29,034 nt of DNA from a virus: IMG/VR virus record IMGVR_UViG_3300023117_000068, positions 1 to 29,034 of that record. The stretch is one strand, 5' to 3'. Position 1 is the first letter of the stretch. Each line of letters starts with the position of its first letter. Positions 4,786 through 16,712 of the stretch are shown piece after piece. Position numbers and translations under genes: made by a program. The notes beneath the pieces are model-generated. The model was given only the letters and a program-made list of their open reading frames with translations. It was not told where the DNA came from and did no database searches.

Positions 4786-4996
4786 ACGTTATCGGCAAGA
4801 AATAACTGAGTGGTCGGACAGCACTCCGAATCACATATATATTACCAATGGTCGAACACTACTCGGCTATATTCCTCGTGGTACAATGAAAGAGCATCGG
4901 TTCAAAACGCCCAGCAAGTGCTGGTCTCCGTCTCGTAGAAAGTTCCGCGATCTAACCAAAAAAGAACTTCTAGCAATTAAGGAAAACAACGTATGA
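4778..4996 (+). CDS. Small basic hypothetical protein (72 aa)
   Basis: Two adjacent ATGs (4775, 4778) are possible; AAGGA at 4765-4769 favours 4778 with an 8-base spacing. The product contains ITEWSDSTPNHIYITNGR and a basic C-terminal part (KCWSPSRRKFRDLTKKEL). I recall similar small phage proteins without a known function. The stop overlaps the start of the exported nuclease gene (ATGA). Confidence 0.68.
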   Translation: MAERYRQEITEWSDSTPNHIYITNGRTLLGYIPRGTMKEHRFKTPSKCWSPSRRKFRDLTKKELLAIKENNV

Positions 4997-5415
4997 AAAG
5001 GATTATTGGCGCACTACTTTTGACGGGTGCTGTAACTGCACAAGCAGAACCCTATGACATGGTGGTCACGAAGGTCACGGATGGCGACACGATTCGCGTA
5101 GATGTGAGCGACTGGGTTCTGCCTGAACTTGGTGACACCATGGGCGTTCGAATCATGGGCATTGATACGCCCGAGAAAGGTGGTCGTGCGCAGTGTGAGG
5201 CTGAGGCTGAACTGGGTGAAAAGGCGACCGAATTCGCTAAGTCTATGATCAAGGTTGGTGACACGGTCCAGGTCGAAGTCGTTCAGTGGGACAAATACGG
5301 CGGTCGCTTCAACGGTATTGTGATGGTAAATGGCGAGAACTTCGCTCAGATGCAGATCGACCGTGGGCTGGCGAAGCCCTATGACGGTGGCACCAAAGAG
5401 TCTTGGTGCGACTGA
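4993..5415 (+). CDS. Exported staphylococcal-nuclease-like (thermonuclease) protein
   Basis: Residues 1-18 form a classic signal peptide (MKRIIGALLLTGAVTAQA, cleavage before EPYD). The mature domain is an OB-fold nuclease with the key residues: D30 and D32 in VTDGDT, R53, D58-T59-P60-E61 in RIMGIDTPE, and R105 in DKYGGRFNG. This matches the calcium-dependent catalytic set of the family. C68 and C139 could form a disulphide, consistent with export to the periplasm. It probably degrades DNA or RNA outside the cytoplasm; scavenging or excluding incoming phage DNA are both possible. AAGGA precedes the ATG by 9 bases. Confidence 0.9.
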   Translation: MKRIIGALLLTGAVTAQAEPYDMVVTKVTDGDTIRVDVSDWVLPELGDTMGVRIMGIDTPEKGGRAQCEAEAELGEKATEFAKSMIKVGDTVQVEVVQWDKYGGRFNGIVMVNGENFAQMQIDRGLAKPYDGGTKESWCD

Positions 5416-9616: not shown

Positions 9617-9624
9617 TATAAATA
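9617..9624 (+). promoter_or_regulatory. T4-type late promoter (TATAAATA)
   Basis: An exact TATAAATA box in the 85-base gap before the first secreted-protein gene. In T4, late promoters use this single box with the gp55 sigma factor and the gp45 clamp. The start would fall near 9630. It marks the switch from early-type to late-type genes. Confidence 0.8.
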
Positions 9625-9662: not shown

Positions 9663-10223
9663 ATGCGTTACATGATTTTCTTTAGTATGGCGATGCTTTC
9701 ATTCGCAACTTTTGCACAAGAAGCAGAACCAATTGATGACGTGATTCGAACTGAAGCAGTAACAACGAGTACGGTAATTACGGAGGGAAAAACTGAGACA
9801 ACACTTAAGTCACCACCCGCTAGTGCGATCTCGCCTACCATAAATACTTCAAACTCGGATCTTTGTACGTTCGGTGTTGCGGGTGCTGTACAGACTCAAA
9901 TTCTGGGCATCTCTACAGGCACACAAATCACGGACGAAAACTGTGAAAGATTGAAGAATGCTAAGACCTTGTACGACATGGGTATGAAAGTTGCAGCCGT
10001 ATCTGTTATGTGTCAAGACCGTCGAGTTTTCGACGCTATGATGAATGCAGGCACACCGTGTCCTTATGACGGTCTTATAGGTCCTGAAGCGAAAGCGGCA
10101 TGGGAAGTAAACCCGGAACTAAAACCGGGCGAGACGAAAGAAGGAGAAATGGACAATGGTACTAAAACAGCAATTGCTGGCGGCGGGCTTCTTGCTTTGC
10201 TTGCCCTTCTACTCGTCCTTTAG
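9663..10223 (+). CDS. Secreted, membrane-anchored surface protein with Cys-rich core
   Basis: A signal peptide (MRYMIFFSMAMLSFATFAQ) is followed by a Thr/Glu-rich segment, then a conserved core: SPPASAISPTINTSNSDLC, GVAGAVQTQILGIS, NCERLKNAKTLYDMGMKVAA, VSVMCQDRRVFDAM and a Cys-Pro turn (CPYDGLIG). The C-terminus is a hydrophobic anchor (AIAGGGLLALLALLLVL). I recall this core from many marine T4-like phages, always near other secreted proteins, without assigned function. Four cysteines in the exported domain suggest disulphides. The final 68 bases overlap the next gene. Confidence 0.78.
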   Translation: MRYMIFFSMAMLSFATFAQEAEPIDDVIRTEAVTTSTVITEGKTETTLKSPPASAISPTINTSNSDLCTFGVAGAVQTQILGISTGTQITDENCERLKNAKTLYDMGMKVAAVSVMCQDRRVFDAMMNAGTPCPYDGLIGPEAKAAWEVNPELKPGETKEGEMDNGTKTAIAGGGLLALLALLLVL

Positions 10224-11040
10224 TCACGCACAGACAGAGGTTGTTTATGGTGTCACCAACAATGCCGCAAATTCTGGTTTAGCATGGGTCATGACCAACG
10301 TACTGCCTCAGCAAGCAGGCTTGACGGTGGGCAACGTAATTTATCAGTACACTACAGTAAAGAACGCCGAAGACGACATGCTGGTTCACGTACAGAACGA
10401 AGACGCACAAGGCAATGGCTATATCTTCCGTGAGACCGATGATTGGTCTGGACTGCCTGGTAACACTATCAACAAAGCAGTATCAGTGGGTGGCATTCCG
10501 ATCAATCGATGGGGTCCTGGCTCTATCGAAGTAGAAGGCGAAGGCAAAGTCACCGATCCCTCTGTCATCTACACGTATCAGTACGACCCGTGTTTCGATC
10601 CTCAAACAAATCCACAGTGTCCGGGCTACAAGGATCCCTTTGATCTGACGCTACAACAGCCCGAAGTGTATGATCCTTTAGACGATCAATTTATTCAAGA
10701 CGAACTGGATCGCAAGGCTACACTCAAAGACGAAGACCAAGAAGATCGAGATCGTAGAAAAGTAAAATCGAAAGAGGTCGCAAAAGAGACTTTAGAAAAA
10801 TTGCTTGGTGACGTAAACAGTTCCGCACTTGCGGTTGCAAATCAGAACAAGCATTTAGAATTGATGGCACTAAGTTTTATGCCAACGACATATTATGAAA
10901 CCATACCCGGTGGTGAGTACAAAGAAGCAGTGACTTTGGTAGATGCTGAATTGCCCGACAACAAAAAAGGTCGAAGGCAACAGTTCGCTCAGGAAGTGCT
11001 TCATGAGAAATTGGTTGATTCACAGTATGAGAACCGATAG
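10156..11040 (+). CDS. Secreted protein of marine-phage surface cluster (294 aa)
   Basis: AAGGAG (10141-10146) is 9 bases before ATG 10156. The signal peptide runs to about residue 25 (FLLCLPFYSSFSHA). The mature part has SGLAWVMTNVLPQQAG, the pattern HVQNEDAQGNGYIFRETDDW, and YDPCFDPQTNPQCPGY with two cysteines, then a long charged helical region (DELDRKATLKDEDQEDRDRR). I recall the N-terminal half as conserved in marine phages beside the preceding protein. Function unknown; export suggests modification of the infected cell's envelope or a virion-surface role. Confidence 0.78.
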   Translation: MVLKQQLLAAGFLLCLPFYSSFSHAQTEVVYGVTNNAANSGLAWVMTNVLPQQAGLTVGNVIYQYTTVKNAEDDMLVHVQNEDAQGNGYIFRETDDWSGLPGNTINKAVSVGGIPINRWGPGSIEVEGEGKVTDPSVIYTYQYDPCFDPQTNPQCPGYKDPFDLTLQQPEVYDPLDDQFIQDELDRKATLKDEDQEDRDRRKVKSKEVAKETLEKLLGDVNSSALAVANQNKHLELMALSFMPTTYYETIPGGEYKEAVTLVDAELPDNKKGRRQQFAQEVLHEKLVDSQYENR

Positions 11041-11061
11041 AGTAATAAAAAGGAGAACGTA

Positions 11062-11559
11062 ATGTTCAAGAAAATTGGTGCGGCAATTTTAGCCGTTTTT
11101 GCAACTCATGCTGTCGCTGAAGATGTAAACATTACAGGTACAGTGGAGTCTAAGTGTCTCGTGGTAACAGACACAGCAGGCATTTATGGCAACCCTACGC
11201 CAAATGTTCTGACAACAACACGTGCTGATGGCGGTGTTATGCCTATTGTTCGTTATGACGTGATCATTGCAAATCACTATAAAGCCCGTATCACTCATCC
11301 GAATTCGTTTTCAGAAGCTCCTTCGTTATCTGATGTGGTAACATGGACAGGTGACACTTCAGTGGCAGAAGTCTCTGACGCTGGAATGTCTGCTTATGAT
11401 ACTGACAAAATTGAATTCGACAACGTGACAGAGATTGCACTGACGATTGCTGGTTCTACTTGGTTTCAAGTACAATCAGAGGCTGATTATGGCTACGACA
11501 AGGCTTTCCCTGCAGGAACTTATCGTACAATTGTCACTGCTGAGTGTATCGCCATATAA
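11062..11559 (+). CDS. Secreted pilin-like beta protein
   Basis: AAGGAG precedes ATG 11062. The signal peptide MFKKIGAAILAVFATHAVA ends before EDVNITGTVESKC. The mature protein (about 146 residues) is beta-rich, with one cysteine near its start and one four residues from its end (TAECIAI). This resembles the size and layout of fimbrial or spore-coat-U-like subunits. It contains GNPTPNVLTTTRADGGV, a pattern I recall from marine phages. The neighbour at 11565 looks chaperone-like, which supports a pilin-like role, but no sequence match has been run. Confidence 0.7.
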   Translation: MFKKIGAAILAVFATHAVAEDVNITGTVESKCLVVTDTAGIYGNPTPNVLTTTRADGGVMPIVRYDVIIANHYKARITHPNSFSEAPSLSDVVTWTGDTSVAEVSDAGMSAYDTDKIEFDNVTEIALTIAGSTWFQVQSEADYGYDKAFPAGTYRTIVTAECIAI

Positions 11560-11562
11560 ATA
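11555..11562 (+). promoter_or_regulatory. T4-type late promoter box overlapping a stop codon
   Basis: An exact TATAAATA overlaps the TAA of the pilin-like gene. The T4-rule start (about 6 bases downstream) would fall at 11568, just inside the next gene whose ATG is at 11565. It therefore may serve genes further downstream or be fortuitous. Confidence 0.45.
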
Positions 11563-11564
11563 AC

Positions 11565-11942
11565 ATGAGAACATTTTTCGTTATTGCTTTATTGGTATTG
11601 CTGAGTGGGCAGGCGACTGCCCACCAGTTTACACCAACATATCCAAAGTTGAAGCCTTCGTTTGTTCCAGGTGTACTCGTAGCAGAGATGGACCTGTTTA
11701 ACGGTAGAACGGATGTAGAATACTACGGAATCGAAGTGTTTGATGCTGATTGGAATAAAGTCGCGTTTGCAACCGAGGCAAAAATTCTTAGATTAAAGCA
11801 TCTAGATAGTACAAAGGTGAACATTTATATTCGTGAAAAGGATCGCAATAAAGCGGTTTATATTTGTTCTGTATCGAAATTGTTAGGCGAAGGATCGAGT
11901 CTAACAATGGTTGCATCTAAAATATGTTCTAAAATAAAATGA
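11565..11942 (+). CDS. Secreted pilus-chaperone-like protein
   Basis: I choose ATG 11565, giving a clean signal peptide (MRTFFVIALLVLLSGQATA). The 105-residue mature part reads as one beta-sandwich domain: HQFTPTYPKLKPSFVPG, EMDLFNGRTDVEYYGIEVFD, then a KVNIYIREKDRNKAVYICS edge and a second Cys in SKICSKIK. This resembles the N-terminal domain of PapD-like periplasmic chaperones, in particular the conserved edge strand. It follows the pilin-like gene. The family call is by pattern only. The stop overlaps the next start (ATGA). Confidence 0.65.
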   Translation: MRTFFVIALLVLLSGQATAHQFTPTYPKLKPSFVPGVLVAEMDLFNGRTDVEYYGIEVFDADWNKVAFATEAKILRLKHLDSTKVNIYIREKDRNKAVYICSVSKLLGEGSSLTMVASKICSKIK

Positions 11943-12391
11943 CAAGATTTAAATTTATATTATTCATTACACTGTATTTCGTTATTGGTTTTTGGGCTGG
12001 TGCCGCGTATGGTCAATCGAGTTCTCTGAACTTAGCCATACCTCAGACATCTCCTAATTTCCAGACTGATAGAATTAGAGCGGGTGACATTGAATGCTCT
12101 ATGGCTATTGGGTCTTCTACGAACGTAGAATTTGGCGTTGTGGGAATTATGAATCAAGAGGATCCGTTGTTCAATCTTGCGCAACAAGATCCGTCGTTTC
12201 GATATAACAATGATCAGTTTTTACGGGATGTTGGTGTGTACGGAAGAATTACAATTCCAATTGGCGCACCAAAAGAAAGGCTCAACTGCAACGTTCTATA
12301 TCAGTTGGAGTTAGAGAAAAAGAGGCTTGAAGTCATGAGACTTCGACAAGAGATTGAAAATTTAAGGGCACTGAAGTTCGAAGAAAATTAA
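11939..12391 (+). CDS. Secreted beta protein with C-terminal coiled coil
   Basis: ATGA overlap with the chaperone-like gene. The signal peptide (FILFITLYFVIGFWAGAAYG) is followed by SLNLAIPQTSPNFQTDRIRA, then GDIECSMAIGSSTNVEFGVV, a pattern I recall from marine phages beside the other secreted genes. The last 40 residues form a charged heptad helix (LELEKKRLEVMRLRQEIENL). It is probably exported or periplasmic. Five consecutive exported products from 9663 to here make a functional unit likely. Confidence 0.75.
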   Translation: MTRFKFILFITLYFVIGFWAGAAYGQSSSLNLAIPQTSPNFQTDRIRAGDIECSMAIGSSTNVEFGVVGIMNQEDPLFNLAQQDPSFRYNNDQFLRDVGVYGRITIPIGAPKERLNCNVLYQLELEKKRLEVMRLRQEIENLRALKFEEN

Positions 12392-12400
12392 GGAATAATC

Positions 12401-12868
12401 ATGGTAGAAATAGCCGCGGCATTGTCGATGGCTGGTTCTGCATATAACATGATAAAGAATGCAGTTGAGAAGGGACAAGAAGTACAAGACTTGTACGGAG
12501 TATTTTCGAAATTTTTTGATGCGAAGGAACATGTAGCAGAAGCGGCAATCGCAAATAGTAACCCGTCACTAACAAGCAAATTGTTTTCGGGTAAAAGTGT
12601 AGAGGCTCAGGCACTAGAAGTGACTGCGGCTAGACATAAGATGATGCAACTTGAAAAGGAGTTGCGCGAATTCTTAATCTATACTGGTCAACAACAGTTC
12701 TATGAAGATATGATGAAAGAGCGTAGAGTAATCCGCCAGCAACGTATCGCCTTAGCCAAAAAGAAAGCAGAACAAAAAGCACTCATGATTGATCTTGCAA
12801 TAGGCGGCGCCGCCATTATTGTGGGAATCGTTGTCATTACAGGTCTTGTGGTAGCGGTGTCATCATGA
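12401..12868 (+). CDS. Helical protein with C-terminal membrane segment (155 aa)
   Basis: The N-terminal half is Ala-rich and helical (EIAAALSMAGSAYNMIKNAV, then VQDLYGVFSKFFDAKEHV). A basic helix RRVIRQQRIALAKKKAEQK precedes a C-terminal hydrophobic segment (AIGGAAIIVGIVVITGLVVAV). I recall homologues in marine T4-like phages as uncharacterised proteins following the secreted cluster. The topology suggests a membrane-anchored or virion-internal protein. The stop overlaps the next ATG (ATGA). Confidence 0.75.
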   Translation: MVEIAAALSMAGSAYNMIKNAVEKGQEVQDLYGVFSKFFDAKEHVAEAAIANSNPSLTSKLFSGKSVEAQALEVTAARHKMMQLEKELREFLIYTGQQQFYEDMMKERRVIRQQRIALAKKKAEQKALMIDLAIGGAAIIVGIVVITGLVVAVSS

Positions 12869-13065
12869 GAAGAGGAAAGAAACATGATTTCAGAGAGTAT
12901 ATTGACATTCGCATATCTCAACTTGCGTCTGACATGCTCAAGGCGAAACACGAATACGACAAGCAATGGTACAACCGCATAATTCAGGAGTTGAGTTGGG
13001 TTAGATCACAAGATCACAATTGCTATATGGAGCACATTACAGATGAAGACTACCGTAAGTTGTAA
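12865..13065 (+). CDS. Small conserved helical protein (66 aa)
   Basis: The protein has the pattern HDFREYIDIRISQLASDML, then HEYDKQWYNRIIQELSWV. I recall it as a small conserved protein of marine myoviruses. It has no signal peptide and one Cys; the function is unknown. It overlaps a newly noticed small gene at its 3' end. Confidence 0.75.
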   Translation: MRRGKKHDFREYIDIRISQLASDMLKAKHEYDKQWYNRIIQELSWVRSQDHNCYMEHITDEDYRKL

Positions 13066-13168
13066 CGATCTTGGTGTGAAAACATATACGGTATATGATG
13101 AGAACAACAAAATAATAATCAGAACCACTTGCAGAAAAGTGGCGGAAGGAATTCTAAATGGCAGATAA
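13043..13168 (+). CDS. Short hypothetical protein (41 aa)
   Basis: An ATG at 13043, with GGAG at 13029-13032, opens a 41-codon frame through the otherwise empty 93-base gap to a TAA at 13166-13168, inside the next gene's start. The product is beta-like: KTTVSCNDLGVKTYTVYDEN, then IIIRTTCRKVAEGILNGR. The pairing of TVYDENNKII with a TTCRKVAEGIL helix looks like a genuine compact domain. It is a candidate because it fills the gap and overlaps both neighbours. Confidence 0.68.
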   Translation: MKTTVSCNDLGVKTYTVYDENNKIIIRTTCRKVAEGILNGR

Positions 13169-13700
13169 AGATTTAGGAGATACCCTAGACAATATCGAAG
13201 AGGGAGTAGAAAATCTTAAGAACACTAAGATGAAGTTGTTTGGCATCACCATGACGCCGACAACAATCAGTGCGGCATTTGCACTTGTGACTGCTGTACT
13301 TGGTTCTCTCTACGGCGGCTTTGAGACATACAAAGCGTTCCAAGAAATGGCTGAGAAACTTGAAGTCTTGGACTTGGAGGCTGTCGAAGCCCGAAACGTA
13401 GCCATCGAGCGCAAACTAGACGATGCGATTGAGTATACACGAGACATCAAGAACAGTCTCAAAGACGATATTATACGCATTGAGCAAGTCACTGAGCGTA
13501 CCAGCAATCGGATGAAAACCGTACAAGATGAAATTGACCAGCGCCTGAGACAGGTATCTGATCTGAGCCGAGAAACGGAGAAAGATGTCAGAGATAGCCT
13601 GAGAGAAGTCGAAGATAGAATCGACAACAAGATGGAGAAGCTGGATGAAGACCTTAGAGATACTTTGCAAAAAGCACTTGACAACCCTTTGTCTGACTAG
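13158..13700 (+). CDS. Membrane-anchored long coiled-coil protein
   Basis: Of 180 residues, about the first 30 are acidic and soluble. One membrane segment follows (TPTTISAAFALVTAVLGSLYGG, residues about 33-54, given here in two pieces by prediction), then roughly 120 residues of heptad-rich charged helix (IEQVTERTSNRMKTVQDEID and similar) to the end. The design resembles a phage membrane spacer such as an i-spanin, but the heptad part is on the C-terminal side and no outer-membrane partner gene is visible. The role is inferred only. Confidence 0.72.
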   Translation: MADKDLGDTLDNIEEGVENLKNTKMKLFGITMTPTTISAAFALVTAVLGSLYGGFETYKAFQEMAEKLEVLDLEAVEARNVAIERKLDDAIEYTRDIKNSLKDDIIRIEQVTERTSNRMKTVQDEIDQRLRQVSDLSRETEKDVRDSLREVEDRIDNKMEKLDEDLRDTLQKALDNPLSD

Positions 13701-16301: not shown

Positions 16302-16488
16302 CGTAATTCGTCAAGTGCCAGTTCGTGGCAAGAAAAAAGACTCAGACGGTCCTGATGTGATGTACGTAGTCGATCTCTGGGAAAATGATGTACTAGTGGA
16401 AAAGAGAGAGTTGCCTGGCTATAACGTCTACTATGCCAAAGACGTAGCCGAAAACTGGGAAAACGGCATCATTCAAATCTCCGAGTAG
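16276..16488 (+). CDS. Small conserved phage protein (70 aa)
   Basis: Among possible starts I choose ATG 16276, preceded by GGAG (16268-16271). The product contains TSVIRQVPVRGKKKDSDGPD, then VMYVVDLWENDVLVEKRELP, then NVYYAKDVAENWENGI. I recall the same order in marine T4-like phages. It is beta-rich with no metal site. Its last 10 bases are also the first 10 bases of tRNA-Pro. Confidence 0.75.
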   Translation: MQNDLKRTSVIRQVPVRGKKKDSDGPDVMYVVDLWENDVLVEKRELPGYNVYYAKDVAENWENGIIQISE

Positions 16489-16556
16489 TTCAGTCTGGTT
16501 AGAATACATGCTTTGGGAGCATGGGGTCGTAGGTTCGAATCCTACCTCGGAGACCA
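16479..16556 (+). tRNA. tRNA-Pro (anticodon UGG)
   Basis: Acceptor arms CTCCGAG (16479-16485) and CTCGGAG (16546-16552) pair fully, followed by A and an encoded CCA. The anticodon stem CATGC/GCATG closes the loop TTTGGGA, giving anticodon TGG with G37, as in proline tRNAs. The T arm is GTAGG-TTCGAAT-CCTAC. Its 5' end overlaps the stop of the preceding gene. Confidence 0.95.
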
Positions 16557-16560
16557 ATTA

Positions 16561-16634
16561 GCCGGATTAGTATAATGGTATTACAGTTGACTTGTAATCA
16601 TCTGACGGGAGTTCGATTCTCTCATCCGGCACCA
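16561..16634 (+). tRNA. tRNA-Thr (anticodon UGU)
   Basis: Acceptor arms GCCGGAT and ATCCGGC pair fully, followed by A and an encoded CCA. The anticodon loop CTTGTAA gives TGT. The anticodon stem has one T-T mismatch (GTTGA/TCATC) and the D stem is short. The T arm is GGGAG-TTCGATT-CTCTC with one G-T pair. The length of 74 bases is normal. Confidence 0.93.
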
Positions 16635-16635
16635 T

Positions 16636-16712
16636 GTCCTCGTGGCGCAATTGGATAGCGCAACAGCCTTCTAAGCTGTGGGTTATAGGTTCGAATCCTA
16701 TCGGGGGCACCA
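16636..16712 (+). tRNA. tRNA-Arg (anticodon UCU)
   Basis: Acceptor arms GTCCTCG and CGGGGGC pair with two G-T wobbles, then A and an encoded CCA. The anticodon stem ACAGC/GCTGT closes the loop CTTCTAA, giving TCT for AGA codons. The T arm is TATAG-GTTCGAA-type. One base separates it from tRNA-Thr, so the three are cut from one transcript. Confidence 0.93.

Follow-up and report, generated by a model that had tools for sequence, protein, structure and literature searches.

Gene order, export signals and late promoter

The window analysed here is the whole 29,034-nucleotide stretch of the IMG/VR virus record IMGVR_UViG_3300023117_000068, and its + strand carries five successive genes, here named g1 to g5, which overlap or are separated by short gaps in the open reading frame (ORF) list and are followed, after two small inserted genes, by a further gene of the same module, g7 (Table 1). 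A signal-peptide-like N-terminus was called by a simple rule for the n-, h- and c-regions in seven of the 48 genes of the window, g1 to g5 being consecutive among these seven, and across the families the same feature was found in 26/30 members for g1, 27/28 for g2, 25/30 for g3, 30/31 for g4 and 28/29 for g5 (83-97%). The five exported proteins in a row that a sequence-only reading of this DNA had claimed are thereby confirmed. Judged by eye, all five signal peptides have type-I-like cleavage sites, and inspection of their translations in the same way revealed no lipobox in g1 to g5.

That reading had also placed the genes under late control behind a promoter box, and this holds as well: the T4-type late promoter consensus TATAAATA stands before g1, has six copies in the window where 0.74 would be expected (an eight-fold excess), and recurs within 120 nucleotides upstream of g1 in 44/84 distinct relatives. 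Among the distinct relatives checked it was never found upstream of g2, g3, g5 or g7, and where it precedes g4 (5/88 relatives) it lies 10-12 nucleotides from the ATG, which is too near to serve that gene. Given its recurrence before g1 and its absence before g2, g3, g5 and g7, the set of g1 to g5 and g7 most likely forms, as judged from these sequences, a single late operon that begins at g1. A copy of TATAAATA at 11555 was rejected as a promoter, since it overlaps the g3 stop codon and ends 2 nucleotides before the g4 ATG.

Table 1. Position of the module's genes and promoter in the window
Feature	Position	Strand	Remarks
Late promoter	9617-9624	+	T4-type consensus TATAAATA; starts 46 nucleotides 5' of the g1 ATG
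g1	9663-10223	+	186 amino acids (ORF list)
g2	10156-11040	+	294 amino acids; start inside the end of g1
g3	11062-11559	+	165 amino acids (ORF list)
g4	11565-11942	+	125 amino acids from the ATG; alternative GTG start at 11544
g5	11939-12391	+	150 amino acids (ORF list)
Two small inserted genes	12401-13065	+	155 amino acids with a C-terminal transmembrane segment; 66 amino acids
g7	13158-13700	+	Transmembrane segment, then coiled coil and, at the C-terminus, an NPL motif; final gene of the conserved set

The module is kept together as a unit. Searched with g3, IMG/VR yielded 60 loci, and with g5 at least 592 relatives (592 of 600 candidate stretches), from which the best 80 were retained. The order g1-g2-g3-g4-g5 is unbroken in all of the more than 100 IMG/VR contigs of sufficient length, and g7 comes next in nearly all the loci obtained with g3; the best 80 g5 loci show the same order, with absences at contig ends only. 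Gene order persists while identity to the window declines to about 40-50%. The small inserted genes mark the subgroup to which the window belongs and are rare, the 155-amino-acid gene being present in 14/63 loci and the 66-amino-acid gene in 7/63. A T4-like Gp23 major capsid gene was found in 5/8 large module contigs (E value down to 1e-151) and other parts of the window are similar to cyanomyophages and related marine T4-like phages; judging from these matches, the module-bearing genomes are a large family of marine T4-like phages. The phage module is also borne by contigs of metagenome-assembled genomes labelled Bacteroidetes, Rhodobacteraceae or Gammaproteobacteria (L146-L152), which are probably mis-binned phage contigs.

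Predicted folds of g3 and g4 and features of their companions

The AlphaFold2 model of g4 (predicted local distance difference test, pLDDT, 91.7) was matched by VIA-align to Caf1M (best, Z 10.8), SafB and FimC in the top rows (Z 10.3-10.8, 97-105 residues aligned). At the profile level, the HHalign comparison of 45 g4 sequences with 23 PapD-family chaperones gave 93% over 90 columns, and still 77% once the first 20 columns, which hold the signal peptide, were removed; its score of 50.3 compares with a maximum of 14.8 in 60 column permutations, and the same g4 profile gave less than 2% with two pilin families. A further HHalign match, between g4 and g2 (48% over 48 columns), was judged unspecific. 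The residues Cys101 and Cys121 lie in the last two strands of the model, the Cys pair being present in 45/45 g4 sequences and followed by a Lys or Arg two residues past the second Cys (C-x-[KR]) in 41/45; in the g4 of the window the motif is C-x-K and stands at the end of the protein. In FGL chaperones a disulfide joins the last two strands, the final one of which also has a conserved lysine (PMC4133393; PMC3706281), the conserved basic residue being K112 in PapD and K139 in Caf1M (PMC4133393). The Lys/Arg of g4 would correspond to these residues. In the region of the conserved N-terminal anchoring Arg (PapD R8, Caf1M R20), alphaproteobacterial g4 proteins have an Arg (MTPMRG) and those of T4-like phages a Tyr-Pro. 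The g4 of Vibrio phages ends in AKLRLYWP, which we take to resemble the donor-strand (G1) end of PapD. The protein consists of a single domain (111-147 amino acids in relatives) and the second PapD domain is absent. The resemblance to a PapD-like chaperone put forward in the sequence-only reading thus finds strong support in both structure and profile, and the model argues strongly for a PapD chaperone-domain fold in a single-domain protein. A search of BFVD with the g4 model returned one clear nearest protein, which has no name, and an uncharacterised protein of Klebsiella phage vB_KvM-Eowyn was among the nearest folds.

In the AlphaFold2 model of g3 (pLDDT 85.6) an immunoglobulin (Ig)-like sandwich starts at residue 32, and residues 20-31, the mature N-terminus, are unstructured (pLDDT about 56). 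Across 49 sequences from phages and bacteria its residues follow the alternation V-x-[IF]-x-G-x-V-x-S-x-C: positions -10, -8 and -4 from the first Cys are hydrophobic in 71-96% of them with polar residues between, and a Gly stands at -6 in 41/49. When set beside the donor-strand patterns of Saf (PMC5700814) and CupE (PMC10104325), residues 20-31 of g3 show the pattern expected for a donor strand. The best Foldseek match of the model is the PapG pilin domain complexed with PapD (E value 0.012, probability 0.98). With its Ig-like fold and N-terminal extension, the modelled g3 has the make-up of an Ig-like donor-strand pilin. A Cys near each end of the mature domain had been noted from the sequence, and the two residues, Cys32 and Cys162, proved to be invariant in 30 relatives; in the model they sit in the first and the last strand. 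Neither predicted structure had a fold unlike those of pilins and chaperones, the outcome that the sequence-only reading had named as counting against it.

The other genes are less easily placed. In the alignment of g5, two Cys that lie 41-72 residues apart bracket two strands, amphipathic by their hydropathy alternation, with a variable connecting loop, and the C-terminal part is a helix with coiled-coil character; g5 is perhaps an oligomeric beta-hairpin protein and a candidate for an outer-membrane base. A conserved domain of about 90 amino acids with four invariant Cys is present in g1, which matches phrog_20531 (E value 1.4e-15) and continues into a C-terminal hydrophobic segment that is a probable inner-membrane anchor; this segment, like the membership of g7 in the conserved set, is an addition to the first reading. 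Homologues of g1 were found in pelagiphages and roseophages, g7 pairs with g1 in HTVC115P and in roseophage CRP-810 as well, and in pelagiphage and roseophage relatives g1, sometimes with g7, is present without the triad of g3, g4 and g5 and close to peptidase or lysozyme genes. The g1 relatives of a pelagiphage podovirus (L002:7647-10702), of CRP-810 (L066:4615-6641) and of pelagimyophage Mosig (L064:1250-4746) lie near g7-like or other small membrane genes and peptidase or lysozyme genes, and make up a separate, unnamed late cassette. An N-terminal domain, an acidic coiled-coil-like stretch and a conserved C-terminus can be told apart in g2, for which the family-model, PHROGs and PDB profile searches found neither a family nor a structure; the PDB sequence-profile search returned only chance matches for g2 to g5.

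The g3-g4-g5 triad outside the T4-like phages

The triad is not confined to the phages in which we found it. A genome scan with g5 revealed three tandem g3-g4-g5 sets in Nitratireductor soli, on a 253-kb scaffold (locus L153:3343-8432), bordered by corrinoid and methyltransferase-type genes; the three copies suggest paralogous fibres or subunit variants. Genome sampling gave matches in 6/297 genomes of the order of Nitratireductor and in 10/398 of its phylum. Nearly all the bacterial loci examined carry the triad, in the order g3-g4-g5 or g4-g5-pilin and mostly amid ordinary chromosomal genes, and a triad without phage context is also borne by a Mesorhizobium plasmid (L259). Phage contamination was rejected as the source for L153, L162-L166, L173, L174, L176 and L178, which have ordinary chromosomal neighbours and no phage context. 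Another bacterial locus (L177:5938-13229) has a recombinase and a transposase in the neighbourhood. Next to its triad are encoded an additional, divergent pilin-like protein and a lipoprotein of 1783 amino acids, and this large protein might be a surface partner.

Among cultured phages, the triad is carried by the T5-like Vibrio phages Bennett, as gp148-150, and VPG01 and by the smaller Vibrio siphophages vB_VhaS-tm and K478b, while D87 has g3 and g4, and homologues of g3 occur in 179 Vibrio phage records. In the jumbo Vibrio phage 2.275.O the order is g4-g5-pilin (L254:2188-4885), and the triad is there preceded by a gene annotated as an S1 peptidase, whose product has a lipoprotein-like N-terminus, and by a gene for a transmembrane protein. 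The occurrence of two gene orders in unrelated phages suggests more than one uptake, and lytic phages have apparently acquired this putative surface-structure system several times. The g3-g4-g5 core of the phage module is best seen as the phage version of a small chaperone/pilin-like operon of Proteobacteria.

With regard to a classical pilus, the usher (PF00577) was found neither in five phage contigs of 116-160 kb nor in nine of 12 triad-bearing genomes, and in the remaining three it is distant from the triad; just one carrier genome had a match to the PapD_N model, at a site apart from the triad. Since the usher is absent or far off, the triad would serve no classical pilus in most carriers, as far as their gene content indicates. 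The Pfam models PapD_N, SCPU and Fimbrial matched none of the triad proteins of the window, the Vibrio phages or the bacteria, no model of Pfam or NCBIfam recognised the triad proteins tested, and PHROGs gave just unnamed families. No report of the triad was found in a literature search that covered few subscription papers.

A proposed envelope module and its alternatives

The explanation that we consider best, and to which we would give about an even chance, is that the late operon installs on the infected cell an exported envelope module, namely a chaperone/pilin-like system without an usher. In such a system g4 would shield g3 in the periplasm by lending it its last strand, and the g3 subunits could then be joined head to tail, or to g5, by means of their N-terminal strands, so that strand exchange would lead to polymerisation of g3. 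The g5 protein would be the outer-membrane base or outlet, and g1, g2 and g7 may be parts peculiar to the phages, which anchor the structure to the inner membrane or supplement it. The product would be a short fibre or coat at the surface of the infected cell late in infection, which might benefit the phage by excluding competing phages, aggregating neighbouring cells or aiding release.

In favour of this explanation are the conserved gene order, the single late promoter, the fold and profile match of g4 to PapD chaperones, the N-terminal alternation and best Foldseek match of g3, the stand-alone triads of bacteria and the recurrence in unrelated Vibrio phages. Several points weigh against it. 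No usher or CsgG that could offer a route across the outer membrane was found in the phage contigs, and the role given to g5 rests on hydropathy. MSP domains, which have the PapD-like fold too, match g4 nearly as well as the chaperones do in VIA-align, and Foldseek's own ranking puts them first. As for g3, its fold match is unspecific, as adhesins, integrins and carbohydrate-binding modules score equally high in VIA-align (Z 5-8), and the HHalign match with SCPU pilins, 62% over 125 columns, falls to 6.7% once the first 20 columns, those of the signal peptide, are left out. The claim of the sequence-only reading that g3 is pilin-like is therefore likely, not proven: the Ig-like model and the donor-strand-like N-terminus lend it moderate support, and specific kinship with pilins is weak. 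Taken as a whole, the interpretation offered in that reading is supported in part, namely for export, late control and the two fold assignments.

The closest comparison is with the chaperone-usher pili, that is Pap/Fim, the FGL systems Caf/Saf/Dr and the archaic Csu/CupE with their SCPU pilins, with which the module shares an exported Ig-like subunit with an alternating N-terminal donor-strand motif and a periplasmic PapD-like chaperone domain, the Cys pair of which has the F/G disulfide position typical of FGL chaperones. However, g4 has one domain in place of the two-domain (boomerang) chaperone, the Cys of g3 are in the first and last strands, whereas the disulfide of known pilins joins strands A and B (PMC5625045), and the module, in which no usher was found, has in g5 a new third protein and falls outside the Pfam models. 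With a one-domain chaperone, no A-B disulfide and no usher found, the module does not belong to the chaperone-usher pathway as defined, and would work, if at all, like a reduced version of it.

Phage-encoded surface systems are, as a kind, already known. Pelagiphages carry curli genes, for which sibling capture, exclusion and lysis timing have been proposed as roles, and the reported clusters contain CsgF, CsgG and curlin repeats (PMC7029224, PMC9599517, PMC9004378). The pelagiphage curli, or type VIII secretion, genes of the HTVC008M, Melnitz and HTVC023P type are, like the module, a multi-gene exported system of lytic marine phages that is foreign to the host, and they have likewise been proposed to serve surface fibres, aggregation or lysis control. 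One could thus suppose that the module is a variant of this secretion system, given that the phages are of the same sort and that both would be surface systems encoded by a phage (PMC7029224, PMC9599517, PMC9004378), but this is largely refuted and in our view scarcely credible: CsgG (PF03783) was not found in the window and eight module contigs, CsgF, CsgG and the curlin repeats of the reported clusters were not recognised here, and g3 and g4 are Ig-like, so that in contrast to a CsgG pore with amyloid repeats the module is chaperone/pilin-like and of other descent.

The main rival follows from the position of the module near lysis genes in several relatives, and supposes that it acts in lysis or in opening the outer membrane and forms no fibre: g4 would fold g3, and g3 with g5, g7 and g1 would span the periplasm and the membranes and aid release in a spanin-like or membrane-disrupting manner. 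The triad directly precedes holin and M15 peptidase genes in Bennett and VPG01, or an endolysin gene in D87; relatives of g1 and g7 in other phages have peptidase or lysozyme genes close by; and g7, a transmembrane coiled coil, has a spanin-like PHROG match, though a weak one (E value 0.062). With the Rz/Rz1 spanins and late lysis cassettes the module also shares late expression and exported or membrane-anchored products. Nevertheless, nearness to lysis genes is common for late genes in many phages, the triad stands alone on chromosomes, distant from phage or lysis genes, as a stand-alone operon, and the module has five secreted proteins and no lipoprotein partner, whereas known spanins need no pilin/chaperone-like pair. 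We therefore regard this rival as unlikely, although to be taken seriously. An identity as an Rz1-type spanin was rejected, as none of the five signal peptides has a lipobox.

A somewhat less probable alternative is surface exclusion or receptor masking, in which g3 to g5 would form a non-polymeric surface complex that blocks the adsorption of other phages. Late expression and recurrence across phage families would suit a competition trait, and the triad of Vibrio phages lies behind a large late gene of phrog_10818, in a tail-fibre-like position. Exclusion proteins are, however, usually single lipoproteins expressed early, and here several chaperoned proteins are made late. This alternative and a fibre are compatible and not exclusive. 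The phrog_10818 gene, whose function is unassigned, precedes the triad in Bennett, D87 and K478b and perhaps codes for a tail fibre (L065:1644-4103).

The presence of the triad beside probable structural genes in Vibrio phages could also mean that its products belong to the virion or attach to it, having crossed the periplasm before they meet the particles at lysis. This we consider very improbable, given that tailed-phage virions assemble in the cytoplasm, that signal peptides are retained in nearly all family members, and that the bacterial homologues occur without any phage context.

Returning to the usher-less envelope module, it is possible, though we hold this doubtful, that the triad represents a new class of surface-fibre assembly, in which a PapD-like chaperone of one domain and a pilin of the donor-strand type are combined with an oligomeric beta-hairpin protein of about 130 amino acids that replaces the usher, native to Proteobacteria and repeatedly captured by lytic phages that build the fibre on the host late in infection. 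Proteobacterial chromosomes and hundreds of lytic phages, both marine ones and those of Vibrio, carry a chaperone/pilin-like operon without an usher, covered by no family model searched. Should it really produce a structure at the cell surface, it would amount to a minimal route to donor-strand fibres, and to the second case, after phage curli, of lytic phages remodelling the exterior of a doomed cell. It would lend itself to direct testing, given the cultured Vibrio phages and the easily cloned three-gene operons.

Elsewhere in the window, the gene at 4993-5415 codes for an exported phage nuclease, which is staphylococcal-nuclease-like, bears a signal peptide (MKRIIGALLLTGAVTA...) and has homologues near the module in some relatives, and a cluster of tRNA-Pro, tRNA-Thr and tRNA-Arg occupies 16479-16712.

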